Positions 9,621-25,676 of a stretch of 35,644 nt of DNA are shown piece after piece. The stretch's first letter is position 1; each line of letters begins with the position of its first letter. Where the stretch lies: NCBI GenBank assembly GCA_021791055.1, contig JAJYXI010000035.1, positions 1 to 35,644 on the forward strand. Direction: 5' to 3'. Source of the DNA: Nitrospirota bacterium. Its GTDB lineage: Bacteria > Nitrospirota > Thermodesulfovibrionia > Thermodesulfovibrionales > Dissulfurispiraceae. The position numbers and the translations under genes are program-made. Under the pieces are notes generated by a model. The model searched no databases and was not told where the DNA came from. It was given only the letters and a program-made list of their open reading frames with translations.

Positions 9621-9659
9621 GAGACCCGTTTCGCTATGTTTTTACATCTGTCCACAGGT

Positions 9660-9734
9660 TTTACACTGTTCAATGACCCTGCCTTCACAAGTTCAATAAA
9701 ATCAAAGGAATTGCAGACAGGCATATTCTTTGCT
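9660..9734 (+). promoter_or_regulatory. Sigma-54 promoter P1 with upstream element
   Basis: AGGCAT-ATTCT-TTGCT at 9719-9734 has GG and GC in the exact -24/-12 register. An AAAATCA element lies at 9698-9704 (21 bp upstream of the -24 start) and TTTACAC at 9660-9666 (59 bp upstream). A second TTTACAT lies at 9641-9647. Predicted start is near 9745. It would read into the structured leader, the 24-aa ORF and probably the diguanylate cyclase gene. Confidence 0.75.
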
Positions 9735-9783
9735 CACTCAAGAATGGAATATTTTTTCAAAGAGGATGCAGGTGGGCAGGAAT

Positions 9784-9849
9784 ATGGCAGTGAATGCAAT
9801 AAAAAGGGCGAGGACATTTAACAAGAAGGGCATAAGGTGCCCCATTTAA
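9784..9849 (+). CDS. Possible 21-aa leader peptide
   Basis: A short basic ORF lies about 40 nt into the predicted P1 transcript, with GGTGGGCAGG just before its ATG. It encodes MAVNAIKRARTFNKKGIRCP plus a final Ile. Its end overlaps the hairpins of the structured element at 9828-9897, an arrangement seen in attenuation leaders. There is no independent evidence that it is translated. Confidence 0.2.
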   Translation: MAVNAIKRARTFNKKGIRCPI

Positions 9850-9897
9850 TAAAATGGGTCATACATACATGTAAGGCAGGAGATAAGCCTTATGCCC
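9828..9897 (+). ncRNA. Structured leader RNA with mutually exclusive hairpins
   Basis: GGGCATAAGG (9828-9837) can pair perfectly over 10 bp with CCTTATGCCC (9888-9897), enclosing a 7-bp hairpin CCCATTT/AAATGGG (9841-9847/9852-9858) and a purine-rich single strand. The 3' arm can instead pair locally, TAAGGC (9872-9877) with GCCTTA (9887-9892), leaving GGAG in its loop. The two folds exclude each other. It does not match a riboswitch family I recognise, including the c-di-GMP classes. It lies in the predicted P1 leader upstream of the cyclase gene. Confidence 0.4.
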
Positions 9898-9969
9898 CGA
9901 GCCTTTTTGAGCTCATGGAATACTGCACAACCGGAGACCATAGAAAATGCCCTTTTTATTTAGAAATAA

Positions 9970-10016
9970 GGCAATGTAGGGGGATTTCATAATGGGGACT
10001 TTGTCCCTCTTATGCC
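9970..10016 (+). promoter_or_regulatory. Hairpin immediately upstream of the 24-aa ORF
   Basis: GGGAC (9995-9999) pairs with GTCCC (10003-10007), extended by CATAA (9988-9992) with TTATG (10010-10014) around a 2-nt internal loop. GGCA/TGCC may close the base. No T-run follows, so it is not a typical terminator; it sits just before the ribosome site of the next ORF. Confidence 0.35.
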
Positions 10017-10030
10017 AGAAGGAGATAAAA

Positions 10031-10105
10031 ATGGATTTGATTTCTATTTTAATGATCTTACTGCCTTTAGCAGGCTGCATATACGCCTTTAACTTTAAGG
10101 CTTAA
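10031..10105 (+). CDS. 24-aa hydrophobic small protein
   Basis: The ORF is too short for usual gene finding but has a near-ideal ribosome site, AAGGAGATAAAA, before the ATG. The peptide (MDLISILMILLPLAGC then IYAFNFKA) is one membrane-spanning helix. LPLAGC also fits a lipobox. It is the best-supported tiny ORF between P1 and the diguanylate cyclase. Possible roles are a membrane regulator of the downstream enzyme or a leader peptide; no known family is recognised. Confidence 0.4.
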   Translation: MDLISILMILLPLAGCIYAFNFKA

Positions 10106-10181
10106 GGCCGATTAACAACATTTCGGTCTGCAGAAAAAGTGGCTCTAAAAAGCATACCGGCTTCATGGAAAGTGAATACTC

Positions 10182-12203
10182 ATGGATCTTGAATTTATCG
10201 ATACACGCTCATTGTCCACCATACAGGATTCCATTTCAGAAATAACCGACCTGTCTTTCTCTACCTATGACAGCAGCGGCGCCCTGTTGACTGCTCCAAA
10301 GAAAGAGGACAGGCTGCTTGCCCAGATAAAGTCCTATGCCTCCGGCAGAGAGGAATATGAAAGATTCATCCGTGATGGGATAGAAAAGGCAGTTTTAAGG
10401 AAGGAGACATCCGTTATTAAAGGGATTGCCAACCAGCACCAGTTTTTTATCCCTATCGATGTCAACGGCTTTAAACTTATCCTTGTCAGCAGTCCATTTT
10501 ACTTTATAAGAACGGAATTTGAGGATTTTTTGATTAAAAAAGGGGAATATTTCGGTTTTTTGCTATCACATCTTGAATCATGGCTGGAGACAATTAATTT
10601 TAAGGACTACCCGTCTGTTCAGAAAATATCGGTCCATGTAAAATCCCTGTTCGAAACATTCCTGCAGGGCAGTTATGAAAAGAATCTGAACCGCAGGAGA
10701 TACCAGATGGCTAAGACAATGATAGATCTCACATTCAATATCCAATTGCCGGTGCCTGTAAAAGATTTTTACACATCGGTTCTTGATGCAATACTCTTTC
10801 TCTTTAATGCTGACACAGTCTCCGTAATGGTCAAGGAGAAGAATTTTTTTAAGACTGCCATAGCTTCCGGCAGATTGCAGGATGATGTAAGAACTTTAAG
10901 AATGGAGGAAAATAATCCAAGAATTATTCATTCCATAGAAGGCTTCATTCCGGAATTCACAAATGATGTCGTGGAAATATCGAAACTCGGTTTTCCTGAG
11001 GGCATAACATCACTGCATATCTTCCCCCTTTTGTGCAGAAACAACACCTATGGCGTAGTGGTCATATATAACTCAATTTTATCGAGGGAGGAATCCTACA
11101 GCATTTTGGAGTTCTGTAAGCTTTCATCGCTGATCCTTAAAAATCTTTTTTTACAAAATGCCCGTGAAAATTGCATCGATAAAATAACGGCGCTAAATAC
11201 GGCAACAACCAAATTAACACCAAAGCTTTATAATCTCGATATTCTTTACGAGACCATTGTGGATACGGCCACAGAGCTTTTAGGGTCAGAAAAGGGCTCT
11301 CTCATGGCGCCTGAAGATGGCAGCTTGCTGATAAAAGCCGTAAAGGGTATAAACAAGTGGCTTATACAGGATATAAAGATAAAAATAGGTGAGGGAATTG
11401 CAGGAAAGGTATTTGAAGATGGCGAACCCCTTCTTGTAAAGGATATAGCAAAGGCCGGACTGCCGTCTGTCAAACTTAGAAGCCATTATAAAACAGGCTC
11501 CTTTGTCAGTGTGCCGCTGAAGTTTGCTTCCGAGACAATAGGCGTCCTCAGCATTTCGGATAAAACAACAGGAGAAGAGTTTACAGAGCAGGATCTGGAT
11601 GTGCTCAACTATTTCTCGTCTCATGCCTCAATAGCTTTAAAGACTTCAAGTTATTACAACTTGGCTGAAAAAATGAAAGAGCTTTCTATTACAGACCCTC
11701 TGACAGGGGTCTTTAATAAACGATACCTTCAGGAGCGTTTCGAAGAGGAGATTCACCGCTCGGAGCGTTATGATCTTGTTTTTTCCGTCGCAATATTCGA
11801 TATCGATTATTTCAAGATATTCAATGACACAGAAGGCCATCTTGCAGGAGATAATGTATTAAAAGAACTTGCGCGCATAACCAACGGATGTTTAAGGGCG
11901 AATGATATTATAGCGAGATTCGGCGGCGAAGAATTCGCAGTTTTAATGCCCCAGACGGATAATGATAAAAAGGAGGCATTTGTCGTTGCAGAAAGAATAA
12001 GAGAAAACATCAAAGCGTCCCTTACCCGCAAGTGGGAGAAATTTCCATATCCATCAATAACAGTGAGCATAGGTGTAGCGTCTTTCCCTGATGATGGCAG
12101 AAGTATCGATGAACTGATAGAAAGCGCTGACAGGGCGCTTTATAAAGCAAAGGCAATGGGCAGAGATAGAACCGTTATATTCAAAAAAGAAAATTATATG
12201 TAA
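10182..12203 (+). CDS. GAF-domain diguanylate cyclase
   Basis: The 673-aa cytoplasmic enzyme is predicted to make c-di-GMP from two GTP. The N-terminal region (about 1-150) has a PocR-like sensory pattern, but without the usual cysteines. Two GAF-like domains follow (about 190-310 and 350-490); the second is well formed, with KIGEGIAGKVFEDGEP. The GGDEF domain (about 505-670) has an intact active site GGEEF (581-585). Its product-inhibition site is also intact: R572-A-N-D575 lies exactly five residues before GGEEF. There are no membrane segments. It lies between P1 and the P2-driven small gene and is the obvious local c-di-GMP source for the PilZ proteins nearby. Confidence 0.93.
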   Translation: MDLEFIDTRSLSTIQDSISEITDLSFSTYDSSGALLTAPKKEDRLLAQIKSYASGREEYERFIRDGIEKAVLRKETSVIKGIANQHQFFIPIDVNGFKLILVSSPFYFIRTEFEDFLIKKGEYFGFLLSHLESWLETINFKDYPSVQKISVHVKSLFETFLQGSYEKNLNRRRYQMAKTMIDLTFNIQLPVPVKDFYTSVLDAILFLFNADTVSVMVKEKNFFKTAIASGRLQDDVRTLRMEENNPRIIHSIEGFIPEFTNDVVEISKLGFPEGITSLHIFPLLCRNNTYGVVVIYNSILSREESYSILEFCKLSSLILKNLFLQNARENCIDKITALNTATTKLTPKLYNLDILYETIVDTATELLGSEKGSLMAPEDGSLLIKAVKGINKWLIQDIKIKIGEGIAGKVFEDGEPLLVKDIAKAGLPSVKLRSHYKTGSFVSVPLKFASETIGVLSISDKTTGEEFTEQDLDVLNYFSSHASIALKTSSYYNLAEKMKELSITDPLTGVFNKRYLQERFEEEIHRSERYDLVFSVAIFDIDYFKIFNDTEGHLAGDNVLKELARITNGCLRANDIIARFGGEEFAVLMPQTDNDKKEAFVVAERIRENIKASLTRKWEKFPYPSITVSIGVASFPDDGRSIDELIESADRALYKAKAMGRDRTVIFKKENYM

Positions 12204-12209
12204 GGTTTC

Positions 12210-12294
12210 TTTACAAGTCACACAGAATTATCCGGATCTTTTTAGACGAATCCTTTAAAATCAGCATCTTTGCAAATCTGGCACATAATCTGCT
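12210..12294 (+). promoter_or_regulatory. Sigma-54 promoter P2 with upstream elements
   Basis: TGGCAC-ATAAT-CTGCT at 12279-12294 has an exact TGGCAC -24 box and correct spacing. AAAATCA lies at 12257-12263 (22 bp upstream) and a TTTACAA variant at 12210-12216 (69 bp upstream), ten base pairs further than in the other promoters. Predicted start is near 12305, 19 bp before the 63-aa gene. Confidence 0.8.
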
Positions 12295-12323
12295 TAACAA
12301 TTTAACAATAGGGGGTATCTGTT

Positions 12324-12515
12324 ATGGAGGATGTCTTAATGAACAGGCACAAGGCAGAAATTCTTATCTCTATACTCATGGAATCGCCTATGTATCTGAC
12401 CCTCCCCATCGAGGCGAGGCGCTCTCTTCTAATAAGCCTGCTGGATAGCTATCCTTCCCTTTTCGATGCGTGGGATTACGGCGAAGAAGTCGAGTTCCGG
12501 TATGAGTCTGAATAA
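12324..12515 (+). CDS. 63-aa soluble protein under a sigma-54 promoter
   Basis: The family is not recognised. The protein is helical and acidic at its C-terminus (WDYGEEVEFRYESE), has no signal peptide or membrane helix, and contains a repeated ILISILMESP / LLISLLDSYP pattern, suggesting two similar amphipathic helices. Two starts are possible: 12324 (GGGGG 8 nt upstream) or Met6 at 12339, which has a perfect GGAGG 8 nt upstream and gives 58 aa. Having its own strong promoter suggests a regulatory or adaptor role in the biofilm regulon. Confidence 0.65.
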   Translation: MEDVLMNRHKAEILISILMESPMYLTLPIEARRSLLISLLDSYPSLFDAWDYGEEVEFRYESE

Positions 12516-12537
12516 ATGGGAAATCTTCATTGAGGTC

Positions 12538-12559
12538 ACTGTAAAAACTTTTTAACAGT
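12538..12559 (+). promoter_or_regulatory. Dyad upstream of P3
   Basis: ACTGT-AAAAA (12538-12547) and TTTTT-A-ACAGT (12549-12559) form a nearly perfect palindrome. It contains GTAAAAAC, the reverse complement of the GTTTTTAC at the P3 upstream site (12591-12598). It is a candidate operator or second activator site; it is too AT-rich for a terminator. Confidence 0.3.
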
Positions 12560-12593
12560 TGATTAAAACCGTTTAATACAATCGTCCATTGTT

Positions 12594-12667
12594 TTTACAC
12601 ATCTGAAAATCCAAACTATAGAAAACCTTGCAATTCCGCTATTGTTCCAACAGGCATGTCTTTTGCT
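12594..12667 (+). promoter_or_regulatory. Sigma-54 promoter P3 for the BcsA-like operon
   Basis: AGGCAT-GTCTT-TTGCT at 12652-12667 has GG/GC in register. TTTACAC is at 12594-12600, 58 bp upstream of the -24 start, within GTTTTTACACATCTG, a longer string that recurs nearly unchanged at 18336. The IHF-like AAAATCA seen at the other promoters is absent at the -21 position. Predicted start is near 12678, 26 bp before the ATG. Confidence 0.75.
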
Positions 12668-12703
12668 CAAAAAATAGAATAATGACCGGGAAGGCAGGAG
12701 CAA

Positions 12704-14902
12704 ATGGCATCTGACAGGACTTTTCATATAGAGCGAGTAAAGGGAACAACTTTCATAGCCCTGCTGTCTATAGGTGTGACTGCCTACTATCTCATATGGC
12801 GTCTTAACACATTCAATCCTGGTGCAATGGGCTTCTCCATTGTCCTTTACTCTGCAGAGGTCTATGGTTTTATAACCACTCTGATGTTCTTCTTCATGAT
12901 ATGGAAGCCAAAGAAGAGACTACCTATTGCTCCGGAGCAAGGTCTTACGGTGGGTGTATTTATTCCAACTTTAAATGAGGATGTGGAACTTCTGAGGAAG
13001 ACGGTTTTAGGGTGCCTCAACATGACCTATCCCCATAAGACCTATATCCTTGATGACGGCAGGCGTCAGGAAGTCGAGACTCTTGCAGGGGAGCTCAACT
13101 GTGGATATATTGCAAGACCGGACAATAAGGATGCCAAGGCAGGCAATCTCAATTATGCCCTTAGCAGAACAGACGGCGAATTTGTTGTTATCTTTGACGC
13201 TGACCATGTGCCCCAGCCTGATTTTCTTGATAAGGTTCTGGGATATTTCAGGGACAGAAGGGTTGCCTTTGTCCAGACACCCCAGGATTTTTACAATATT
13301 GACTCCTTCCAGCACAGGTTGACAAGAAATAAAAAGCTCTGGACAGAGCAATCGCTTTTTTTCTCCCTTATACAGCCGGGAAAGGACAAATGGAATGCAG
13401 CCTTTTTCTGCGGGAGCTGTGCGGTTCTCAGAAGGAAGGCATTGGAGGACATAGGAGGCTTTGCAACAGGAACAGTGACCGAAGACCTGCATACATCCAT
13501 TAAACTCCATGCAGGGAGATGGAAATCCATTTATCACAATGAGAGTCTGGCATACGGCATTGCAGCCCCTGTCCTTTATCCCTTCAAGTGTCAGAGGCTC
13601 AGGTGGGGGCAGGGTGCAATGCAGGTCTTAATAAGGGATAATCCTGTTTTCATAAAGGGACTCACATTTCCCCAGAGGATATGCTATCTGGCATCCATAA
13701 TCACATATTTTGACGGGTTTCAGAAGGCTGTTTATTATGTCTCTCCGATAATCGTGCTTCTTACCGGTCTTTATCCGATTAAGGCCTTCAATATGGATTT
13801 TCTCATAAGGTTTATCCCGCACCTCGGCCTTTCCCTCTGGGCCTATGAAGAGATGACAAGGGGCTTTGGCAGAATTTTCCTTATGGAGCAGTATAACATG
13901 ATAAGGTTCAACACCTTTATCAAGTCCACTGCCGGTTTCTTTAAGAATAAAAAACTGCGATTTAAAGTAACGCCGAAAACAGGATTCGAGAGAACGCATA
14001 TAAGAATGCTTATACCCCAGGCATTGATATTGTCTGTCGGCATTCTGTCCATTTTCTGGACAATCTCCGGACTCGCCCCTTACAAGGTTGACAGGGGAGT
14101 TATTGCGGCAAATATCTTCTGGGCTTTGATAAACACAGGGCTTGCATACACTGCAGGCAGATATGCCTTAAGAAAAGTCCAGAGGAGGAAGGACTTCAGA
14201 TTCCCTGCCAACCTTCCCGCCCTGGCTGTTTTTCCAAATCCGGGGAGCCGTTTGATTGTAGTGGAGGATCTCCATGAAAAGGGGGCGTCAACCCACAGCC
14301 AGGAGAGGTTTAAGGCCGGCTCTACACTAACACTTCGTCTTCCCCTTGCTCACAGGACAGTTGAAATAAAGGGAAGGGTGCTTTATTCAAAAGAGGGCAG
14401 TGACCGTGGAATTCCGATTTTTCATCATGGCATCGAGTTTGAGGAGGTCTCCGGGGATGCGAGGGATGCAATAGTTATGTTCAACTTTTCCTATGCCGTC
14501 AATAAAATGATGAATAACCTTTCCATTGCCGAAGAGACTCCTCTTTTAAAGCTACATCGAATGTTAAGAGGCACGGTAATTCAAAAAAGGGGTGTAAGAT
14601 ACCCATTGCATTTGCCGGGAGACTGCTGGATTAATGCAAAAGAGCATCTGCCCTTTGTTACAGAAGATATAGGCGATTACGGTATGAGGATATTTACATA
14701 CCATGAAATCACGGAGCCTTTAATATCCTTTGACCTTGTCTCCCATAAGGGGTGGCCCTTGCTTAAAGGAAGAATCATATGGCGTAAAGGAATGGACTTT
14801 CATGGTAATAAGGCATGGCAGTATGGCGTGAAATTTTTGATAGAAACAAAGAAGGTTGTTCACAAGGAAGTATTGGGAGGACTTGTACACGCCAATGCCT
14901 GA
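12704..14902 (+). CDS. BcsA-like family 2 glycosyltransferase with two PilZ domains
   Basis: A membrane processive beta-glycosyltransferase of 732 aa resembling cellulose synthase BcsA. Two membrane helices (about 15-40 and 45-68) precede the GT2 domain. The full catalytic set is visible: DDG (Asp117), DAD (165-167), TED (Asp261) and QRLRW (297-301). Several membrane helices follow (about 325-480). A PilZ domain begins at RKDFR (about 494-498), followed by DLHEKG. A second PilZ-like domain (about 627-720) has KRGVR and DIGDYG. Both PilZ signatures lack the usual Ser. No bcsB is adjacent, so the polymer may not be cellulose. The start has the ribosome site GGCAGGAG. Confidence 0.9.
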   Translation: MASDRTFHIERVKGTTFIALLSIGVTAYYLIWRLNTFNPGAMGFSIVLYSAEVYGFITTLMFFFMIWKPKKRLPIAPEQGLTVGVFIPTLNEDVELLRKTVLGCLNMTYPHKTYILDDGRRQEVETLAGELNCGYIARPDNKDAKAGNLNYALSRTDGEFVVIFDADHVPQPDFLDKVLGYFRDRRVAFVQTPQDFYNIDSFQHRLTRNKKLWTEQSLFFSLIQPGKDKWNAAFFCGSCAVLRRKALEDIGGFATGTVTEDLHTSIKLHAGRWKSIYHNESLAYGIAAPVLYPFKCQRLRWGQGAMQVLIRDNPVFIKGLTFPQRICYLASIITYFDGFQKAVYYVSPIIVLLTGLYPIKAFNMDFLIRFIPHLGLSLWAYEEMTRGFGRIFLMEQYNMIRFNTFIKSTAGFFKNKKLRFKVTPKTGFERTHIRMLIPQALILSVGILSIFWTISGLAPYKVDRGVIAANIFWALINTGLAYTAGRYALRKVQRRKDFRFPANLPALAVFPNPGSRLIVVEDLHEKGASTHSQERFKAGSTLTLRLPLAHRTVEIKGRVLYSKEGSDRGIPIFHHGIEFEEVSGDARDAIVMFNFSYAVNKMMNNLSIAEETPLLKLHRMLRGTVIQKRGVRYPLHLPGDCWINAKEHLPFVTEDIGDYGMRIFTYHEITEPLISFDLVSHKGWPLLKGRIIWRKGMDFHGNKAWQYGVKFLIETKKVVHKEVLGGLVHANA

Positions 14903-14927
14903 AAAAAATCATTTAGAAAATTTAGAA

Positions 14928-15029
14928 ATGGAGTCAAAAGTGAGGATTGTTTGTCTTGAATGCCTTTACTGTCATTTCGAAAACAACCTATCAGACTGCA
15001 AGGAATTTCAGGCCATACAATGCCTTTAG
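14928..15029 (+). CDS. Possible 33-aa cysteine-rich protein
   Basis: The small ORF between the first glycosyltransferase and the BcsS-like gene encodes five cysteines, C9xxC12xxC15 with C24 and C32 (IVCLECLYCHFENNLSDC). This is reminiscent of a tiny zinc ribbon. The ribosome site is weak. It may be a real small metal-binding protein or chance. Confidence 0.3.
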   Translation: MESKVRIVCLECLYCHFENNLSDCKEFQAIQCL

Positions 15030-15048
15030 AAAAAACACAGGAGGATAT

Positions 15049-15771
15049 ATGAGAAATAGAAAAGTGCTTTTTATATTTATATTTGCGATCTTCGTGTTAT
15101 TTTCTTCCGACTCGAGGGCAGCTTCTCTCAGTCTGCTCCTCGGAGGAGAGGCAGACACAGAGGGACAGAGTTATGTTTACACAGGTGTAATCGGAGAAAG
15201 CCCGCTGCAGGAGAATCTTTCCCTTATGTATAAGCTGTGGCTTGACCATCTTACATACGAATTTGAAAAGGACAATGATACGATTAAGGCAAAGGCGCCT
15301 GCCTTTCAGCCGGCCATTGGTCTGAAACTCCGTGGACAGGGCAGCAGCACAACCCTCTGGGTAGGCTGGGAGCACAGGAATACAAGTATAAAGCCTGTCA
15401 GGGAGAATGTGGAAGTAAGGGGTGTTACAGACAGCCTTGTGCTGCAGTTCGAATTCGATAAGTGGACAGAGAAATCGACAAATTTTAACATCATTGCAAG
15501 CTACAGCACAGAGAACAGCTATGTCTGGACAAGGGGGAGAATAAAACAGGAGCTTTCATCTTATCCCCTCGGGCGTGACCTTCCCTTGAGGATAGGGCTT
15601 GAGGCTGTCGGACAGGGGAATAAGGACTATAGCGCTTTTCAGGTTGGGCCGATAATAGAAATATATAGCCCCCAAAAAAATGCCTCATTTTTAATCAGGG
15701 GAGGATATAAGCGCAGCTCAAGTGACCATAGCAGTGCCTACGGAGGCATTGAGCTCTTTTTCGGCTTTTAG
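15049..15771 (+). CDS. BcsS-like outer-membrane beta-barrel protein
   Basis: A secreted 240-aa protein. The start at 15049 is chosen because AGGAGG lies 4 nt upstream and it gives a clean signal peptide (about 1-24, ending DSRAASLS); an in-frame start 102 bp earlier would bury it. The mature part is made of alternating aromatic strands and ends ELFFGF with a terminal Phe, the usual signal for outer-membrane barrel assembly. The early motif LLLGGEADTEGQSYVYTGV resembles BcsS, a cellulose-operon protein of unknown exact role. Its place between two BcsA-like genes suggests a role in polymer export or anchoring. Confidence 0.65.
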   Translation: MRNRKVLFIFIFAIFVLFSSDSRAASLSLLLGGEADTEGQSYVYTGVIGESPLQENLSLMYKLWLDHLTYEFEKDNDTIKAKAPAFQPAIGLKLRGQGSSTTLWVGWEHRNTSIKPVRENVEVRGVTDSLVLQFEFDKWTEKSTNFNIIASYSTENSYVWTRGRIKQELSSYPLGRDLPLRIGLEAVGQGNKDYSAFQVGPIIEIYSPQKNASFLIRGGYKRSSSDHSSAYGGIELFFGF

Positions 15772-15782
15772 GTGTGCGACAT

Positions 15783-17687
15783 ATGCAATCCGGTATGTCC
15801 TTCCAGAGGGAGAGGGCAAAAGGGGTTGGCTTTATAGCCCTTCTTTCCATTTCAGTCACTGCCTACTATCTCATATGGCGTCTTAACACATTCAATCCGG
15901 ATGCAATGGCTTTTTCCATTATACTTTACAGCGCGGAAATATATGGCTTCATAACAACCCTGATGTTCTTTTTCATGATATGGAAACCGACAAAGAGGAT
16001 TCCTATGGCCCCTGAACAGGGTTTCACCGTTGATGTATTCATTCCAACACTGAACGAGGATGCGGAACTGCTCAGAAAGACGGTTTTAGGATGTCTTAAT
16101 ATGAATTACCCGCATAAGACCTATATTCTTGATGACGGCAGGAGGCCTGCAGTTGAGGCCCTTGCAAGGGAGCTCGGCTGCGGATATATAGCGAGGAATG
16201 TCAACAGGGATGCAAAGGCAGGGAACCTCAACCATGCCCTGGGCAGGACAGATGGCGATTTCATTGCTGTTTTCGATGCAGACCATGTGCCGCAGCCTGA
16301 TTTCCTTGAAAGGCTCCTCGGATATTTCAGGGATGAGAAGGTGGCCTTTGTTCAGACCCCACAGGATTTTTACAATATAGACTCTTTTCAGCACAGATTG
16401 ACAAAAGGCAAGAAACTATGGAGCGAACAGTCTCTATTCTATTCCCTTATACAGACAGGAAAGGACAGGTGGAATGCAACCTATTTCTGCGGGAGTTGTG
16501 CAATTTTAAGGAGAAAGGCATTGGAGGATATAGGAGGATTTGCCACAGGCACGGTGACAGAGGATTTGCACACATCCATAAAACTCCATGCAAATGGCTG
16601 GAGGTCCGTTTACCATAACGAGAGCCTTGCATATGGCATTGCTGCCCCTGTCCTTTATCCTTTTCAGAAACAGAGGCTTAGATGGGGGCAGGGAGCCATG
16701 CAGGTCTTAATAAAGGATAATCCCCTTTTTATAAAGGGGCTTGCCATTGCACAGAGGGTTTGCTATCTGGCATCAATGACAACATATTTTGACGGCTTTC
16801 AGAAGGCTATTTATTATTTCTCACCCATTATTATCCTCTCTACAGGTTTTTATCCGATTATGGCATTTAATATGGATTTCCTCATCAGGTTTATCCCGCA
16901 CCTCGGCCTTTCCATCTGGGCATACGAGGAGATGTCGAGGGGCTTTGGAAGAACCTTATTCATAGAGCAGTATAGCATGATAAGGTTTTATACCTTCATC
17001 AGGTCTACTATAGGATTTTTAAGAAATAAGAGGCTGCGATTTAAGGTGACGCCAAAGACAGAATATAAAAAGACAGACCTTAAAATGCTCTTACCCCAGG
17101 TCTTGATACTTTCAGGAAGCGTTACATCCATTTTATATGCCATATCAGGGCTTGCCGTTTATAAAATTGACAGGGGAATTGTTATAGCCAATATCTTCTG
17201 GGCAATGGTAAACACAGGGATTGCCTATACTGTTATAAAATACTCGATAGAGAAGATCCAGAGGAGAAGGGACTTCAGGTTCCCTGCTGATATCCTCGCA
17301 AGAAACCGTTTGATTGTAGTTGAGGACCTCCACGAAAGAGGGGCATTGATCCAGACCACCGAAAAGTTTAAGCTCGGGTCTATATTATCATTACGCCTTT
17401 CCCTCGGTGATAAGACAGTTGAGATAAAGGGGATAGTCCTTTACTTGAAAAAGAGTGTTAATCGCAGGGTTCCTGTCTTCTATTACGGCATTGAGTTTGA
17501 GGATGATTCAAGAGATGCAAAGGACGCTATTATTGTGTACAACTTTTCTCATGCTGTAAACAAGATGATGAAAGGGCTTTCCATTGACAATGAGACCCCT
17601 ACTGCTGCTCAATCGAGAACAACAAAACAGGAACTCGGTTTTAAAGCGCGATCAAAAGTTATCGTTACATCACATCCGCTGGCATGA
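15783..17687 (+). CDS. Second BcsA-like family 2 glycosyltransferase, single PilZ domain
   Basis: A close paralogue of the enzyme at 12704; most stretches are identical or conservative. All catalytic motifs remain: ILDDGRR, FDADHVP, TVTEDLH and QRLRWGQG. The membrane topology is the same, and a first PilZ domain is present (RRDFR ... DLHERG). The C-terminal second PilZ domain of the paralogue is missing; the protein ends shortly after the first. ATG 15783 is chosen because AGGTG lies 8 nt upstream; GTG at 15774 and ATG at 15795 are alternatives. The gene starts directly after the BcsS-like stop. This is a tandem duplication with loss of one regulatory domain, or gain in the other copy. Confidence 0.9.
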   Translation: MQSGMSFQRERAKGVGFIALLSISVTAYYLIWRLNTFNPDAMAFSIILYSAEIYGFITTLMFFFMIWKPTKRIPMAPEQGFTVDVFIPTLNEDAELLRKTVLGCLNMNYPHKTYILDDGRRPAVEALARELGCGYIARNVNRDAKAGNLNHALGRTDGDFIAVFDADHVPQPDFLERLLGYFRDEKVAFVQTPQDFYNIDSFQHRLTKGKKLWSEQSLFYSLIQTGKDRWNATYFCGSCAILRRKALEDIGGFATGTVTEDLHTSIKLHANGWRSVYHNESLAYGIAAPVLYPFQKQRLRWGQGAMQVLIKDNPLFIKGLAIAQRVCYLASMTTYFDGFQKAIYYFSPIIILSTGFYPIMAFNMDFLIRFIPHLGLSIWAYEEMSRGFGRTLFIEQYSMIRFYTFIRSTIGFLRNKRLRFKVTPKTEYKKTDLKMLLPQVLILSGSVTSILYAISGLAVYKIDRGIVIANIFWAMVNTGIAYTVIKYSIEKIQRRRDFRFPADILARNRLIVVEDLHERGALIQTTEKFKLGSILSLRLSLGDKTVEIKGIVLYLKKSVNRRVPVFYYGIEFEDDSRDAKDAIIVYNFSHAVNKMMKGLSIDNETPTAAQSRTTKQELGFKARSKVIVTSHPLA

Positions 17688-18622: not shown

Positions 18623-18979
18623 ATGAAGAAACTTATTGCAATTATCTGGCTCGTCATATGCCTGATCCCTATATGGGCAGCGGCAGAGGAGCCGGTTAAA
18701 ACTCCGGCAGGGGAGGGCGCTATCCTTGCCTTATCCCCCCCTGAAGATAGGACTTGGATCAAATTTGAGCCCTCCCTGCAGGAGTGGGAAAAAGGCAAAA
18801 GGAATCTCGGTGATAAGGAACTTGGCCTTATAACCGGACAGGCTCTGGTAACGGATACTCCAAATATCAGTGTTTCCACCGATTCGAGGATAATCCTCTG
18901 GGATGAGGTGAGGACAAAGGCGGAAGGTGCAAAAAACCAGGGAGGCGGCCAGAGCATGACAACAATATCAGTAAGGTAG
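18623..18979 (+). CDS. Secreted protein of the amyloid operon, with a GG-leader-like motif
   Basis: A 118-aa protein with a signal peptide (about 1-21, ending IWAAA). The family is not recognised. The mature region holds NLGDKELGLITGQ, with L62, E66, L67, I70, G72. This is the same spacing as the double-glycine leader motif in the protein at 20706, except that the last Gly is Gln73. The tail is Gly/Gln/Ser-rich. As first gene after P4 it may fill the place of FapA or a chaperone/nucleator, but that is positional inference. A ribosome site (AAGGAAGGA) precedes the ATG. Confidence 0.75.
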   Translation: MKKLIAIIWLVICLIPIWAAAEEPVKTPAGEGAILALSPPEDRTWIKFEPSLQEWEKGKRNLGDKELGLITGQALVTDTPNISVSTDSRIILWDEVRTKAEGAKNQGGGQSMTTISVR

Positions 18980-19072: not shown

Positions 19073-19477
19073 ATGAAAACACTATTAAGCATAATTGGAG
19101 CATTCGCCCTTCTGGTTGCATTCGGCATCCCGGCAATGGCGACGGATAATAATACTGCAACAAATAATGACGGTTCAGCAGTTGCACAGCATCATAGTGG
19201 TGCTCTTAACGTTAAGGATTCTCTCAACGACAACCGCACATATGATGACGACAACAATGCAGTGGCACTTGCCTTTTTGATCCAGGTGAATTTTATTCGC
19301 GATGTCGATGATGAGTTGATAGATGGTGACTCTGGCAACATCGATGTAGATGACTCTATCCGTGGCTTTTCAGGCATTGCAAATGTGAACCTCAACACAG
19401 GCGCTATGAACAACCAGGCAATACAGCAGACCATAGCTGTTAGCGTCAACAGTGGTGGGAGCCAAATAGGGAACTAA
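19073..19477 (+). CDS. Fap-like amyloid subunit, first copy
   Basis: A 134-aa secreted protein: signal peptide about 1-23 (ending PAMA), then an Asn/Asp/Gly/Ser/Ala-rich mature chain with almost no aromatic residues. The C-terminal segment GIANVNLNTGAMNNQAIQQT followed by IAVSVN resembles the GNxGVNxAAGxxNQQ motif of Fap amyloid repeats. Alternating short beta motifs (SAVAQ, ALNVKDS) recur. A very strong ribosome site (AGGAGGAAAAAAAG) suggests high expression. It is followed by a near-copy at 19521. A curli-like or Fap-like fibre subunit is the best reading, but not proved. Confidence 0.75.
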   Translation: MKTLLSIIGAFALLVAFGIPAMATDNNTATNNDGSAVAQHHSGALNVKDSLNDNRTYDDDNNAVALAFLIQVNFIRDVDDELIDGDSGNIDVDDSIRGFSGIANVNLNTGAMNNQAIQQTIAVSVNSGGSQIGN

Positions 19478-19520: not shown

Positions 19521-19925
19521 ATGAAGACAATATTAAGCATAATCGCAGCATTTGCCCTTCTGGTTGCATTCAGCATGCCGGCAATGGCGGATGATAATAA
19601 TACTGCAACGAACAATGACGGTTCAGCAGTTGCACAGCATGATAGTATTGCTATTAACGTTAAGGATTCTCTCAACGACAACCGCAAGTATGACGATGAC
19701 AACAATGCAGTGGCTGAAGCTTATCTTGAGCAATGGAATTGGATAGAAAACGTCAATGAGGAGTTGATAGATGGTCACTCTGGCGACATTAATGTAAGCG
19801 GTTCTATCCGTGACTTTTCAGGCATTGCAAATGTGAACCTCAACACAGGCGCTATGAACAACCAGGCAATACAGCAGACCATAGCTGTTAGCGTCAACAG
19901 TGGTTCGAGCCAAATAGGGGACTGA
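19521..19925 (+). CDS. Fap-like amyloid subunit, second copy
   Basis: This is the paralogue of the gene at 19073, the same length, with a signal peptide ending MPAMA. The first 60 codons and the last 40 are nearly the same as in copy 1. The middle (about residues 62-98) differs strongly, e.g. AEAYLEQWNWIENVNEELID here. The last ~90 nt of coding sequence are identical even at silent positions, pointing to recent duplication or gene conversion. A major/minor subunit pair, like CsgA/CsgB or FapC/FapB, is a natural guess. The ribosome site AGGAGGAAAAAAG is as strong as in copy 1. Confidence 0.75.
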   Translation: MKTILSIIAAFALLVAFSMPAMADDNNTATNNDGSAVAQHDSIAINVKDSLNDNRKYDDDNNAVAEAYLEQWNWIENVNEELIDGHSGDINVSGSIRDFSGIANVNLNTGAMNNQAIQQTIAVSVNSGSSQIGD

Positions 19926-19993: not shown

Positions 19994-20692
19994 ATGGGCA
20001 AAATGACCATAAAAATCTTTATACGTGTGATACTGGTTTCGATGCTGTTTGTATATGTTGATGATACAACGGCAGCCTCCATGGAACTGCGTGTTGGAAG
20101 CATGGCCTTTTCCAAAAACGTAAGGACAATGAAGGACATGAGGTATAAGAACATTGTCAGACAGACAAAGGATTACAGTTGCGGCGCTGCTTCCCTTGCC
20201 ACCATCCTCACATACTATTTTGGAAGGGAGACATCAGAGGAAGAGATTATCCGCGCTATCTTCAGTAATGCTGACAGCGAGACGATAGGGGAGGTGAAGA
20301 GGAAGGGCCTTTCCCTATTAGACCTTAAGAATTATGGAGAGTCCCTCGGTTATAAGGGCGCTGGATACAGGGTGCCTGCCCATCAACTCAAGACCCTTGA
20401 CAGGCCTGCCATTGTCCTTGTCAACCACAAGGGATATTCACATTTCATTGTGATCAAGGGTGTTAAGGATGACCGTGTCTTTCTTGCTGATCCGGCAAGG
20501 GGCAACATGGTGATGGACCTGAATGAGTTTTTAGAGATTTGGAACGGGATACTACTCGTTTTTAAAAACCCGGATGGTGAAAGGATACAATCCCATGCCC
20601 TCAATGTGAAGCCCAATGGACTGCGTAAAAACGAGATAATGTCAAGGCAGTTCGATCTGGGCTTTGTAAGAGGACACTCCGAATTTAAATGA
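19994..20692 (+). CDS. Periplasmic C39-type peptidase, FapD-like
   Basis: A 232-aa protein with a signal peptide (about 1-28) and one papain-like C39 domain. The catalytic set is complete: oxyanion Gln57, Cys63 in YSCGAASLA, His150 in GYSHFIVIKG, Asp166 in LADPARG. There is no ABC transporter or membrane domain, unlike bacteriocin exporters; this single-domain exported form matches FapD of the Fap amyloid system. C39 enzymes cut after double-glycine leaders, and the next gene encodes such a motif. GTG 19991 is an alternative start; ATG 19994 has GAGG 7 nt upstream. Confidence 0.88.
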   Translation: MGKMTIKIFIRVILVSMLFVYVDDTTAASMELRVGSMAFSKNVRTMKDMRYKNIVRQTKDYSCGAASLATILTYYFGRETSEEEIIRAIFSNADSETIGEVKRKGLSLLDLKNYGESLGYKGAGYRVPAHQLKTLDRPAIVLVNHKGYSHFIVIKGVKDDRVFLADPARGNMVMDLNEFLEIWNGILLVFKNPDGERIQSHALNVKPNGLRKNEIMSRQFDLGFVRGHSEFK

Positions 20693-20705
20693 AGGAGGTG
20701 AGGAA

Positions 20706-21248
20706 ATGGAACGAAAGCCGAAAATAAAAGGGTTATTTATGATTATCGTGATGCTGCTGGCAGTTGCTTTTCCCCATTATGCAATGGGTGACGATATTGT
20801 CCTTAGTAGCACATCTCTCACAGACCCAGAGATGGCTGAAATCCGTGGAGGCTTCCAGATGCCCAATGGAAACTTCGTCTACTTTTCCATGGATTTCATG
20901 CGGGCGAGGTTTATTGCTCAACCTAACACACAAAACCCTGTGGGCTGGGTAAATGCACTGAGCCAGAAGGCAGTTATCACGAAGGAAGGAATGGCATTCG
21001 ATCTGCAAATACTGCAGGGAGGAGATAACAATTCGCCAAATTCTTTGCCTGTGTCTAACAACCCTGGAGGAGTCTCTATTGCTAATTCCTTTATGAACAA
21101 TTCCGGTTTTGTCAATGCCAACATCACCACAGGAAATTATAATGCATCCTCAATAGCCAATCTCATCAATGTACATGTTGGTTTCTTCAATATAGGAAAT
21201 CCCTCTCAGGTTCTTCCGGCATTGCGGAGCTGGATGCTCCCCTATTAG
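20706..21248 (+). CDS. Secreted protein with double-glycine leader motif and Fap-like C-terminus
   Basis: A 180-aa protein. A Sec signal peptide (about 1-28, ending AMG) is followed by LTDPEMAEIRGG at residues 38-49, a textbook double-glycine leader: Leu at -12, Glu -8, Met -7, Ile -4, Gly -2, Gly -1. The C-terminal part SGFVNANITTGNYNASSIAN followed by LINVHV has the same SGxxNxNxxTGxxNxxxIxxxIxVxV spacing as the two subunits. It is probably a third fibre component or adaptor, processed by the C39 enzyme encoded just upstream. The ribosome site GGAGGTGAGGAA is strong. Confidence 0.8.
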   Translation: MERKPKIKGLFMIIVMLLAVAFPHYAMGDDIVLSSTSLTDPEMAEIRGGFQMPNGNFVYFSMDFMRARFIAQPNTQNPVGWVNALSQKAVITKEGMAFDLQILQGGDNNSPNSLPVSNNPGGVSIANSFMNNSGFVNANITTGNYNASSIANLINVHVGFFNIGNPSQVLPALRSWMLPY

Positions 21249-21515: not shown

Positions 21516-21533
21516 ACACACTGCAAAAATTGT
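21516..21533 (+). repeat. 18-bp direct repeat flanking the IS, left
   Basis: ACACACTGCAAAAATTGT is found here and identically at 22956-22973, immediately outside the two IS ends. It is best explained as a long target-site duplication. Confidence 0.8.
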
Positions 21534-22955
21534 GTAACGCCAACATGATAATGTCCTAATATACCAAAATGAAAATGTCCTATTCATGAATTGCTAAACT
21601 GTCTCTTTTTTAGGAGGAGACAGCATGAGCGGAAAGGACATTATCATGATAAGGCAGAAGGAATTAAGGCGGTTACATGTAATTCACAGAGTATTGGATG
21701 GAGAGATAACGCAAGTTAAGGCATCAGAGATGCTCTCATTAAGTGAGCGACAGATAAGGCGAATAGTGAAACGTATAGGACAGGAAGGAGACATTGGCAT
21801 AGCTCACAAATCACGGGGGAAGGAATCCAGCAGGAAGCTGCCTGAGAAGCTCACGGAGCGTGTGGTATATCTGTATCAGCAGAAGTATCAGGGATTTGGT
21901 CCGACACTGTTTAGCGAGAAACTTGCAGAGTTAGAAGACATACACATCAGTGATGAGACAGCCAGGAAGTGGCTGATAGAGGCAGGGCTATGGGAGGTGA
22001 ATCGCAGACAAAGGACACATCGTCAGTGGAGACAGAGAAAAGAGCATTATGGAGAGATGGTACAGATGGACGGCAGCCATCATGACTGGTTTGAAGGCAG
22101 GGGGCCTGAATGTGTGCTCATGGCGTATATAGACGACGCAACAAACAGGGTTTATTGCAGATTCTATGAATACGAGGGAACCATTCCCGCAATGGACAGC
22201 TTCAAAAGATATATCAAGAAGTATGGTATACCAATGAGCATATATTTTGATAAGCACACCACCTACAAATCAACAGCAGAGCCAACTATAGAAGAGGAGA
22301 TAAACGGAGAGGAGCCGTTAAGCGAATTTGGCAGGGCATTGGAAGAACTCGGAGTGCAAAGGATATATGCTCACTCACCGCAAGCAAAGGGCAGAATAGA
22401 GAGGCTATTTAAGACCCTTCAGGACAGACTTATCAAAGAGATGCGGTTAAAGGGAATAAAGAGCGTAGAGGAAGCAAACAAGTTTCTAAAGACATATCTG
22501 CCGAAATACAACAAGAAGTTTTCTCTGAAGGCACATAGGTCAGAAGACCTTCATATGCCTGTGCCTGAAGGGATAGACCTTGATGCAATACTCTGCATAA
22601 AGACAGGAAGGACAGTCAGAAATGACAACACAATAAGTTATCAGAAGGAGTTGTATCAGATTGAGGAGGTGATGGCAGGGAAGATAGTAACGGTAACAGA
22701 ACGGATAGACGGCACAATGCGTATGCTTTATCAGGGCAGGAACCTAAAGTTCAGACAGATAAACGTTCGTCCTGAAAGGCCACAGAAGCAGAAAGTGAAG
22801 ATAAAGAGAAGGACAGCCTATATACCACCAGCGGATCACCCATGGAGGAAGTTCAAAATAGGCAGGAACGCCTCCAAAAATATAACGGAGGTGGCAGCGT
22901 AGAAACCGGACATTTTCATTTTGGTGAAAACAGGACATTTTTATTTTGGCTTGAC
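21534..22955 (+). mobile_element. ISNCY/ISDol1-like insertion sequence, 1422 bp
   Basis: The outer terminal repeats are 21534-21556 and 22933-22955 (18 of 23 positions match after inversion). A second, perfect 18-bp inverted pair lies inside, at 21563-21580 and 22908-22925. Outer and inner repeats share CCAAAAT.AAAATGTCC, so each end carries two likely transposase sites. One transposase gene fills the element, which lies between the double-glycine protein gene and the FapF-like gene. Confidence 0.85.
21625..22902 (+). CDS. DDE transposase (ISNCY/IS481-like integrase core)
   Basis: The 425-aa protein has an N-terminal helix-turn-helix (about 12-55: SEMLSLSERQIRRIVKRIGQ) and a retroviral-type integrase core. 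Asp in QMDGSHHDWFEGRG, Asp in YFDKHTTY and Glu in KGRIERLFKT form the DDE triad. It appears full length with no frameshift. A perfect AGGAGG ribosome site lies 7 nt before the ATG. The element may still be active, given the intact gene and clean ends. Confidence 0.9.
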   Translation: MSGKDIIMIRQKELRRLHVIHRVLDGEITQVKASEMLSLSERQIRRIVKRIGQEGDIGIAHKSRGKESSRKLPEKLTERVVYLYQQKYQGFGPTLFSEKLAELEDIHISDETARKWLIEAGLWEVNRRQRTHRQWRQRKEHYGEMVQMDGSHHDWFEGRGPECVLMAYIDDATNRVYCRFYEYEGTIPAMDSFKRYIKKYGIPMSIYFDKHTTYKSTAEPTIEEEINGEEPLSEFGRALEELGVQRIYAHSPQAKGRIERLFKTLQDRLIKEMRLKGIKSVEEANKFLKTYLPKYNKKFSLKAHRSEDLHMPVPEGIDLDAILCIKTGRTVRNDNTISYQKELYQIEEVMAGKIVTVTERIDGTMRMLYQGRNLKFRQINVRPERPQKQKVKIKRRTAYIPPADHPWRKFKIGRNASKNITEVAA

Positions 22956-22973
22956 ACACACTGCAAAAATTGT
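22956..22973 (+). repeat. 18-bp direct repeat flanking the IS, right
   Basis: Identical to 21516-21533. Removing the IS and one copy joins the DNA between the upstream amyloid genes and the FapF-like gene without loss. Confidence 0.8.
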
Positions 22974-23011
22974 TGACTTAAGGACTACATTAACCTATAA
23001 TTGCCAGAAAA

Positions 23012-23029
23012 TGGCCTTAGAAAAGGCCA
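23012..23029 (+). promoter_or_regulatory. Small hairpin before the FapF-like gene
   Basis: TGGCCTT (23012-23018) pairs with AAGGCCA (23023-23029) around a 4-nt loop and is followed by six A. It is 12 bp upstream of the GGAGG ribosome site. In the uninterrupted locus it could act as an mRNA processing or attenuation element. Confidence 0.3.
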
Positions 23030-23051
23030 AAAAACTATAAATGGAGGCAGT

Positions 23052-24065
23052 ATGAAAAGATTTTTTAGACTTATAGCAGTTTTCATAATCTTAGGCCTTA
23101 CACTTTCTAATGTCTTTGCAGAGGAAAAGGTAGAGCCGGGAGTCACAGTAGAAAAGGGAAAGGAGAGAGAGAAGGTAGAGCCTGGAATCGTGGTAGAAAA
23201 GGGCGGTATCCTCATCGGTAAAGGAAGGTTGATTTTTGAGCCGGGTTTTCAGTACACGCATATCAGCACGCAGAGGCTTGATATTACAGGCTTCACAGTA
23301 CTGCCAGCCCTGGTTGTCGGCATAATCCAGGTTGAGAAGATAAAGAGGGATATACTGACGCCGTTCGTAACGCTAAAATATGGTATTACTAAGGGGGCTG
23401 AGCTTGATATAAAGGTCCCTTACTCAATAAGGTATGACGAGTATACCTACGGAACAGCCCCTAATAGGGTTATTAAAAGGACCGATGAATCTGGTTTTGG
23501 AGATGTGGAAGGCGCTCTCCTTTTTCATATAATAAGAGAAAAGGGTGCAAGGCCGGATGTTATTTTAAGTATTAAGGGTAAGTCCCGCACCGGTAAGGAC
23601 CCCTATGGAATCCAGACCGAGACAACAACCGGTTATACAATACCCAGGGGGCTTCCCCTCGGAAGCGGCCATTGGGCAGTTGAACCTGGCCTAACCTTCG
23701 TGAAGACGGCAGAACCTGCTGTAGTCTTCGCAAACATAAGCTACTTTTATCATATGAAAAGAGATGTTGGCCATGGTATTGGCACTGTTGATCCAAGCGA
23801 TAGCATAAACTACAGCCTCGGCGTTGCATATGCCGTGAGTGACAAGGTTGCCCTGAGTACGGCCTTTGAGCAGAAATTCTACAACAGGACAAAGGTCAAT
23901 GGAATAAAACAGCCCGAAACAAATGTAAATGTGGCATCGCTCCTTTTAGGCGCGTCTTATGCCTTTGGCGAGAAAACATCACTAAGCCTCACAATCGGCA
24001 TAGGGCTTACCCCTGAATCTCCAGACGTCCAGGTCAGCTTGAGAATGCCGATAAATTTGTTTTAA
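23052..24065 (+). CDS. FapF-like outer-membrane beta-barrel exporter
   Basis: A 337-aa protein. The start at 23052 has GGAGG 5 nt upstream and gives a proper signal peptide (about 1-22, ending NVFA). A short tandem duplication follows (EKVEPGVTVEKG and EKVEPGIVVEKG). The rest alternates beta strands of the transporter/MetA-type barrel family and ends RMPINLF with terminal Phe. FapF, the fibre secretion pore of Fap systems, is a trimeric barrel with an N-terminal plug/helix region. Location near a FapD-like peptidase and Fap-like subunits supports this assignment. A general solute channel cannot be excluded. Confidence 0.7.
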   Translation: MKRFFRLIAVFIILGLTLSNVFAEEKVEPGVTVEKGKEREKVEPGIVVEKGGILIGKGRLIFEPGFQYTHISTQRLDITGFTVLPALVVGIIQVEKIKRDILTPFVTLKYGITKGAELDIKVPYSIRYDEYTYGTAPNRVIKRTDESGFGDVEGALLFHIIREKGARPDVILSIKGKSRTGKDPYGIQTETTTGYTIPRGLPLGSGHWAVEPGLTFVKTAEPAVVFANISYFYHMKRDVGHGIGTVDPSDSINYSLGVAYAVSDKVALSTAFEQKFYNRTKVNGIKQPETNVNVASLLLGASYAFGEKTSLSLTIGIGLTPESPDVQVSLRMPINLF

Positions 24066-24101: not shown

Positions 24102-24351
24102 ATGAAAGGGTTTATAAAGGTTCCTGTTTTTGGGCATCCTTGTATTTTCTTTCTACATTGGATGGGGATGGGGCAGAATAGATGCGTGGTCTGAAGGCTA
24201 CAACCATGCAATTGACGAGGTAAAGATGGAATTGAAATCTGCCATTAAAGACGAAGTGCCATTCTGGTTCGGTGACATAAGATTCATTCCGCGCAAGAAC
24301 GGCACTGCCAATGCAGTTATAGCAAAGGCAGAGGATGAAGGATCAACGTGA
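24102..24351 (+). pseudogene. Frameshifted copy of the 81-aa membrane-anchored protein gene
   Basis: The ATG at 24102 (AGGAGG upstream) opens the same reading frame as the intact gene at 25431. Two bases (GT) are missing after codon 7 (around 24122), so translation leaves the frame. The remaining 219 bp match the other copy with a single difference (G24291 versus A25622). An in-frame TTG at 24130 could give a shorter 73-aa protein without its ribosome site. It is most likely an inactivated duplicate, or an assembly error to be excluded. Confidence 0.7.
24123..24341 (+). repeat. 219-bp near-identical duplication, copy 1
   Basis: Pairs with 25454-25672 at constant offset 1331 with one mismatch. 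The two copies flank the csgG-like gene in direct orientation. Confidence 0.9.
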
Positions 24352-24449: not shown

Positions 24450-24580
24450 AAGTAAGTATACAACGGCAGGCTTTTGCTATTCACTTTTTCTATTCATCGC
24501 CGGGAAGCTATTCAATAATAAAGGGGTTTTAGTCGTACATGTCTTTGATAAAAGTTTAACACACTAAAATGGAGCTAATC

Positions 24581-25372
24581 ATGAAATCACTGTTAAACAT
24601 ATTTTCACCAATCCTCATAATTGCTTTTTTAAGCGGGTGTGCAACTATGGAACAGATGACAGCGCCTAAAGCAAAAGTTGACACCGGTCTTGAGCAGCAG
24701 CTTCCTCCATATACTGGTCCGAAGGCTGCCGTTGCGGTCGCAAGTTTTGACTGGAAGGTGGGTGCGGCCGCGGGCAAGACGGTAATAAGAGGTATGGGAG
24801 AAGAGCCAATAACCATAACACAGGAGCAGTCCGGCTACATGACAGGGCTCAGGGATATGCTAACGACCGCACTAATTCAGAGCAAGAGATACAGAGTCCT
24901 CGAAAGGCAGGAATTGGGCGCCATTCAGGAGGAAATAGAGCTTGCACGGAAGGGCTACGTAGAAAAGAAAACGGCGGTAAAGAAGGGGAAGATTAAGGGG
25001 GCCGACATCCTTGTTATAGCAGCCGTCACCGGCTGGGATCCCGGTGCCGCTGGGGCTGGCGGTGGTGCTGGCGTATTGGGAGGTGGCTTTCTCGGCGCCA
25101 TAACCGGGGCGGTTAAGAAATCCTACATGGCTATCGACATACGAATAATAGACACCGCCACGTCCGAGGTCCTTGCAGCCACAAGGGTTGAGGGCGAGGC
25201 GAAGGACATAAGCCTTGGCGCATTGGCTGGTGGCATTATGGGCAATGTGGGGATCGGCGGCGCACTTGGGGCTTTTTCCAAAACTCCAATGGAAAAGGCG
25301 ATAAGGACGTGCATATTTGAAGCCGTAAAATATATTGTGGATAATACGCCAAAAGAGTATTTTAAGCACTGA
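24581..25372 (+). CDS. CsgG-family outer-membrane secretion lipoprotein
   Basis: The 263-aa protein has a lipoprotein signal (FLSGC, Cys20), so it is probably outer-membrane anchored. The body fits the CsgG family: AAVAVASFDW at the first strand, GLRDMLTTALIQSKRYRVLE then RQEL, GADILVIAAVTGW, and YMAIDIRIIDTATSEVLAAT. CsgG forms the nonameric pore that exports curli subunits. A Gly/Ala-rich stretch (GAAGAGGGAGVLGGGF) replaces part of the usual loop region. Start 24581 is chosen because GGAG lies 6 nt upstream and it gives the proper signal; 24569 is also in frame. No csgE or csgF is seen. Confidence 0.88.
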   Translation: MKSLLNIFSPILIIAFLSGCATMEQMTAPKAKVDTGLEQQLPPYTGPKAAVAVASFDWKVGAAAGKTVIRGMGEEPITITQEQSGYMTGLRDMLTTALIQSKRYRVLERQELGAIQEEIELARKGYVEKKTAVKKGKIKGADILVIAAVTGWDPGAAGAGGGAGVLGGGFLGAITGAVKKSYMAIDIRIIDTATSEVLAATRVEGEAKDISLGALAGGIMGNVGIGGALGAFSKTPMEKAIRTCIFEAVKYIVDNTPKEYFKH

Positions 25373-25430: not shown

Positions 25431-25676
25431 ATGAAAACCTTTATAAAGGTTGTCCTGTTTTTGGGCATCCTTGTATTTTCTTTCTACATTGGATGGGGAT
25501 GGGGCAGAATAGATGCGTGGTCTGAAGGCTACAACCATGCAATTGACGAGGTAAAGATGGAATTGAAATCTGCCATTAAAGACGAAGTGCCATTCTGGTT
25601 CGGTGACATAAGATTCATTCCACGCAAGAACGGCACTGCCAATGCAGTTATAGCAAAGGCAGAGGATGAAGGGTGA
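25431..25676 (+). CDS. 81-aa membrane-anchored small protein, intact copy
   Basis: One N-terminal membrane helix or uncleaved signal (about 4-26, FIKVVLFLGILVFSFYIGWG) is followed by an amphipathic stretch and a short basic tail. The family is not recognised. GWGWGRIDAWSEGY is a notable Trp/Gly-rich segment next to the membrane. The ribosome site is GGAGGG. It lies between the csgG-like gene and the protease gene and is a near-exact duplicate of the frameshifted 24102 copy. An accessory role in export or anchoring is only a guess. Confidence 0.7.
   Translation: MKTFIKVVLFLGILVFSFYIGWGWGRIDAWSEGYNHAIDEVKMELKSAIKDEVPFWFGDIRFIPRKNGTANAVIAKAEDEG
25454..25672 (+). repeat. 219-bp near-identical duplication, copy 2
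   Basis: Intact copy, direct orientation relative to 24123-24341. Confidence 0.9.

Follow-up and report, generated by a model that had tools for sequence, protein, structure and literature searches.

The secretion of functional amyloid by Pseudomonas depends on FapD, a C39 peptidase whose substrate and recognition sequence have been an open question since 2017. According to published work on Pseudomonas, which does not concern the organism studied here, the enzyme must be periplasmic and retain its Cys, and a C38A mutant abolishes secretion (PMC5557850). The substrate stayed open partly because the Fap proteins were said in the 2017 study, in which GG and GA motifs were examined, to lack canonical C39 sequences (PMC5557850). 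FapE has been suspected earlier as the target of FapD (PMC5557850; PMC12822426), and a 2025 review states that FapD is "thought to process" FapE and FapF (PMC12822426). In tryptic mass spectrometry, FapE alone yielded no N-terminal peptides, and the gap extends to about residue 70, past the leader motif (PMC5557850). For C39 peptidases in general, the leader consensus L(-12)xxxE(-8)L(-7)xxxxG(-2)G(-1) has been published (PMC6959990). The leader is helical from -10 to -4 in the PCAT1 complex (PMC6959990) and from -11 to -4 in the LahT complex (PMC6363468); its hydrophobic residues at -12, -7, and -4 lie in a groove, and the GG enters the active site (PMC6959990; PMC6363468).

The window, i.e., the whole stretch of 35,644 nucleotides of Nitrospirota DNA that was analyzed, contains what is, as judged from its sequence, a divergent Fap-like operon (Table 1). 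Like the Fap system of Pseudomonas, it combines a Sec-type C39 peptidase, an adjacent FapE-like protein with a leader, a barrel of the FapF family, and upstream repeat-bearing proteins, and the gene order (candidate subunits, C39, FapE-like protein, barrel) is the same. However, all its matches lie far under the NCBIfam equivalog cut-offs: 148 bits for FapD (cut-off 330), 20 bits for FapE (E=3e-4, residues 11-60 only; cut-off 250), and 169.6 bits for FapF (E=9e-50, profile positions 117-417; cut-off 700). The genuine Fap genes used for comparison came from Pseudomonas relatives (L142/L143), where FapE scores 341-347 bits, above the cut-off. In BLASTP, the window C39 shares 38% identity (130 bits) and the barrel 30% identity (154 bits) with the genuine proteins. 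The window system also differs from Fap in that its leader ends in GG and not in GK or GR, its candidate subunits carry one repeat-like stretch, FapA was not recognized, and there are an extra LWDE protein and an insertion sequence that splits off the barrel gene. The barrel lacks the N-terminal region in which FapF has its coiled coil: the match begins at profile position 117, and the roughly 70 residues ahead of it are unaligned.

Table 1. Features of the Fap-like operon, in coordinates of the window
Feature	Position	Strand	Remarks
118-aa Sec-type protein, LWDE family	18623..18979	+	leader-like LGDKELGLITGQ, residues 62-73, nt 18806-18841
134-aa Sec-type protein, candidate fibre subunit	19073..19477	+	one GxxxxNxxxGxxNxQ-like repeat, without GG leader
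134-aa paralogue, candidate fibre subunit	19521..19925	+	tandem copy of the 19073 gene
Sec-type C39 cysteine peptidase, FapD-like	19994..20692	+	232 aa from ATG
Catalytic residues of the C39 peptidase	Cys63 20180-20182; His150 20441-20443; Asp166 20489-20491	+	assigned from sequence
180-aa FapE-like protein	20706..21248	+	Sec-type signal, GG leader
Double-glycine leader motif LTDPEMAEIRGG	20817..20852	+	residues 38-49 of the 180-aa protein
Insertion sequence	21516..22973	+	transposase 21625-22902; integrase-core and HTH domains
FapF-like outer-membrane barrel	23001..24065	+	likely start Met codon 23052

The peptidase was described in the initial annotation as having a full triad together with Q57 but no ABC transporter, and both statements proved correct. 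Each of these residues was confirmed, and Q57, C63, H150, and D166 show no variation among 10 homologues or among 46 FapD-like homologues. The Peptidase_C39 family (PF03412) matches with E=2.5e-27 (95.8 bits, Pfam cut-off 22). The AF2 model has a pLDDT of 85.5 overall and of about 96 in the domain, and its fold matches the peptidase domains of ComA, PCAT1, and LahT with Z values of 17.9-18.8 and an rmsd of 1.6-2.8. Among solved structures, the closest in sequence is that of LahT with bound leader (6MPZ, E=5e-23). Other papain-like enzymes gave lower structural matches with Foldseek, which are uninformative on function. The window enzyme has the peptidase fold and catalytic residues of the PCAT/AMS systems (PCAT1, LahT, and ComA), but it stands alone, is predicted to be exported by Sec, and has no ABC transporter in its operon.

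Residues 38-49 of the 180-aa protein had been taken for a double-glycine leader, and this is borne out by the comparison of LTDPEMAEIRGG with the published consensus (PMC6959990), because L38, E42, M43, I46, G48, and G49 all fit. The leader (as a peptide, SLTDPEMAEIRGGFQMPNG) has the hydrophobic residues M and I at positions -7 and -4, respectively, so that it shares with PCAT/AMS leaders L at -12, E at -8, L or M at -7, a hydrophobic residue at -4, and G at -2 and -1. It differs from them in following a Sec signal and in belonging to a 180-aa FapE-like protein. FQMPNG comes directly after it, and the mature protein is predicted to start at F50. Hydrophobic Sec-type signals are present at the N-termini of both the 180-aa protein and the peptidase, as called by eye and by a crude hydrophobicity scan without a dedicated signal predictor. 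The AF2 model of the 180-aa protein is of low confidence (mean pLDDT 57) but places a helix at residues 40-46, which correspond exactly to the range from -10 to -4 that is helical in PCAT1-CtA. The earlier description of a Sec protein with a GG leader holds, with the correction that the protein is a FapE-like member of a Fap-like operon and not a bacteriocin.

In BLASTP, only the leader and a few following residues of this protein align with genuine FapE (LTDPEMAEIRGGFQMP in the window and LKDQELAQLRGKYVMP in FapE; in the longer alignment, LTDPEMAEIRGGFQMPNGNFVYFSM and LKDQELAQLRGKYVMP-GRVISFGI). The leader of genuine FapE is LKDQELAQLRGKY (with the following residues, IELKDQELAQLRGK/YVMPG; L142/L143), and that of the FapE-like proteins encoded by a second genome within the same order, which score 110 bits and thus below the cut-off, is LSDSELAQQRGRF (LSDSELAQQRGR/FVDKG). 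Genuine FapE ends its leader in RGK or RGR. With K or R at -1, a search for "GG" is blind to the leader, and a cut at this position would be indistinguishable from a tryptic one. A strict regular expression requiring G or A at -1 likewise misses several members and cannot detect genuine FapE. Since K or R at -1 is unusual for C39 enzymes, the cut in FapE could also lie elsewhere, e.g., between G and K/R. The co-variation of C39 residues with G versus K/R at -1 revealed no clear acidic S1 residue, and kinship confounds this comparison.

Conservation of the motif in homologues had been proposed as a check on the annotation, and the leader does recur beside FapD-like C39 peptidases across several phyla. 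In the phylum of the window, 18 of the 24 stretches around C39 homologues, many of which are close relatives from one family, encode a Sec protein with an RGG-type leader 3' of the C39 gene, and 12 of these 18 also have an upstream leader protein. Orthologues of the 180-aa protein occur in L044 and L054. For other groups, a single-sequence query of genome contigs gave no matches; an alignment-based search through 85,000 species genomes succeeded, and the best 80 of 574 confirmed relatives were taken, from Alpha-, Beta-, Gamma-, and Deltaproteobacteria, Thermodesulfobacteria, and Omnitrophota. The leader occurs beside the C39 gene in the window's phylum, in Thermodesulfobacteria, and in these four classes of Proteobacteria. 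A 13-column position matrix, trained on the window's phylum alone, was then applied to these 80 loci, all of which come from other groups. A score of at least 12 was reached by 30 of 161 signal-bearing ORFs adjacent to the C39 gene, by 8 of 865 non-adjacent ones, and by none of the 161 shuffled sequences. The odds ratio of adjacent versus non-adjacent ORFs is 24.5 (Fisher p=1e-18), a p value that overstates the case because related loci are not independent, although the proportions hold. Most of the 8 non-adjacent matches appear to be additional leader proteins from these operons, being either LWDE proteins or ORFs with a mis-called start. In an alignment of 30 FapE-like proteins, which includes the Pseudomonas proteins and spans 12-37% identity to the window protein, no column other than Met1 and G48 (-2) is invariant, and R47 (-3) is at least 90% conserved.

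The best 80 of the 574 loci also provide a natural control, as they split into 52 Fap-like loci and 28 in which the C39 gene is followed by a barrel of roughly 336 aa with an LEEVFQ-type N-terminus. The C39 from one of these 28, that of P. aeruginosa PA7, was tested and is FilB-like (NCBIfam, 293 bits, below the cut-off). The putative Fil pilus system resembles the window system in having a C39 (FilB), a barrel of the same superfamily (FilC), and a Sec protein (FilA) with an LxxxLxxVTGQ motif. In contrast, the FilB-like loci have no downstream RG[GKR] protein, and their leader ends in TGQ. An RG[GKR] leader protein lies directly 3' of the C39 gene in 37 of the 52 Fap-like loci and in none of the 28 FilB-like ones, where the sole match of the regular expression is inside a barrel; several of the 28 have upstream FilA-like Sec proteins with MDDGALSDVTGQAG or similar, the TGQ variant. 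The leader type therefore tracks the locus type. In L105 (6301-7630), L092, L096, L098, L136, and L141, all with a FilB-like C39 and a barrel, the signal of FilA-like proteins is immediately followed by MDDxxLSxVTGQ[AD]G, and this motif looks like a second leader class. The initial annotation had suggested that the leader protein is a substrate of FapD-type peptidases. Sequence comparisons favor this suggestion, as the leader occurs beside this C39 in several phyla, is missing beside FilB-like C39 peptidases, and is present in genuine FapE as RGK or RGR.

The leader is not confined to FapE-like proteins. A small upstream family (18 members of 104-148 aa) has the same leader and a C-terminal GAFAxASGIxTVIQNSGNNVLIQN, without a meaningful match in NCBIfam. 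The 118-aa LWDE protein of the window, which has no family match in Pfam or NCBIfam, is a possible second substrate by its leader-like stretch; homologues beside C39 peptidases carry VSSAGLERVRGGA (L065) and LDKNVLDNIRGGA (L069). The LWDE family is unannotated, has [VI]xLWDE near its C-terminus, and occurs beside FapD-like C39 peptidases in several phyla, with some RGG leaders. In L036 (87-1340, a single contig), a C39 and a FapE-like segment share one open frame (INEKEMNSLRGTY / INEKEMNSLRGT), which may reflect either a natural fusion of enzyme and substrate or a fault in the assembly. It is also worth mentioning that in L058 (7240-8307, locus reversed), the C-terminal tail of the C39 itself carries SDEELELITAGG, and this C39 adjoins Sec proteins with DAELDQVTAAG-type motifs.

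We suggest that the C39 of the window is a periplasmic FapD-type endopeptidase which cuts the FapE-like protein at its leader and primes its release through the barrel, a reading that we consider probable. The homology to FapD, FapE, and FapF supports the order of events put forward in the initial annotation, Sec export and then periplasmic cleavage at the GG, in which the cut and its scissile bond are predictions. Both proteins would cross the inner membrane by Sec, as their signals indicate, and residues 38-46, past the Sec site, would form a short periplasmic helix. L38, M43, and I46 would sit in the hydrophobic groove of the C39, as in the PCAT1 and LahT leader complexes, with R47-G48-G49 in the active site, and Cys63 would cut after G49 to give a protein starting with FQMPNG. 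Once its leader is bound or removed, the FapE-like protein may be licensed for exit via the FapF-like barrel, and by analogy with Fap, the released protein may help to start or anchor a fibre of the two candidate subunits.

Alternatively, the motif could serve for docking or targeting and be bound by the C39 or the barrel but left uncut, much as HlyB-type C39-like domains hold on to their substrate, the mature protein then starting at the Sec site. Position -1 may be G, K, or R, whereas G(-2) and the hydrophobic positions are conserved, a pattern consistent with recognition outweighing the scissile residue in importance, and bind-only degenerate C39 domains do exist, one apparently in the window's own genome. 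However, a bind-only role is hard to reconcile with the invariance of Q, C, H, and D in the FapD-like homologues and with the loss of secretion in the FapD C38A mutant (PMC5557850), and we regard it as unlikely. The RGG[FY] stretch could instead be structural and mark where the folded or amyloid part begins in FapE-like proteins, with a convergent likeness to C39 leaders. Such a role would fit the aromatic F or Y and the beta strand that follow the motif in most members, but the leader also precedes the unrelated sequences of the small VIQNSGNN family and the LWDE proteins, and its spacing is fixed whereas its distance from the Sec signal varies, which makes this explanation quite improbable.

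The fit to bacteriocin leaders at all consensus positions could further point to a precursor of the bacteriocin type, processed by an ABC transporter with a peptidase domain that is encoded elsewhere. This would be at odds with the Sec-type signal before the motif and with the homology of the operon to Fap. Outside the operon, the genome (99.75% complete) encodes a single C39-ABC protein, which has DTG in place of the DCG of active domains and adjoins a large repeat protein. With the C39 of the operon standing alone and the only C39-ABC protein apparently degenerate, we rejected this scarcely credible explanation and retain leader cleavage by the periplasmic C39 as the probable reading.

The two candidate subunit genes form a tandem pair with 90-91% DNA identity, and both paralogues contain the repeat-like stretch SGIANVNLNTGAMNNQ. 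Neither has a significant match in NCBIfam (E=0.64 with the FapC model for the 19521 paralogue), and it is the repeat pattern alone that links them to FapB/C as candidates. The 19073 protein shares 37% identity with its counterpart in L044, in which the barrel gene lies directly 3' of the GG gene and encodes a protein 64% identical to the window barrel. In the window, these two genes are separated by the insertion sequence, which is single-copy in the genome, has imperfect inverted ends (21531-21557/22932-22958), and shows direct repeats of 18 nt (starting at 21516 and 22956); it may affect barrel expression in this genome. Further downstream, near-identical ORFs of 73 and 81 aa (24130-24351 and 25431-25676) flank a CsgG-family lipoprotein gene (24569-25372). 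Upstream of the operon, positions 8169-17687 encode a PilZ-sigma54 activator, a diguanylate cyclase (GGDEF), BcsS, and two BcsA-like (cellulose-synthase-like) proteins with PilZ domains. A sigma-54 promoter pattern had one match in the window, which is at chance level and not directly 5' of the operon. Because the operon adjoins cellulose-synthase-like and c-di-GMP genes, its product is likely a biofilm-matrix fibre.

The relation suspected between FapD and FapE thereby gains a defined, conserved recognition sequence, which the comparison of loci supports well; neither this leader nor the two further leader-bearing families were found in the literature searched. The GG form in the window and the RGK or RGR of genuine FapE would give a precise, one-site handle on the target of FapD. 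Somewhat more tentatively, but still on the favorable side, we propose that a Sec signal plus a double-glycine-type leader serves diderms in general as a signal for maturation in two steps, in which each stand-alone C39 peptidase of the periplasm (FapD-like, FilB-like, or a relative) acts on at least one operon-encoded surface protein of the FapE-like, small VIQNSGNN, LWDE, or FilA-like families via LxxxLxxxRG[G/K/R] or LxxxLxxVTGQ. Double-glycine leaders would also extend from the substrates of ABC transporters to Sec-exported ones, and the motif can be used to locate unannotated matrix proteins, most of its members being without a family model.
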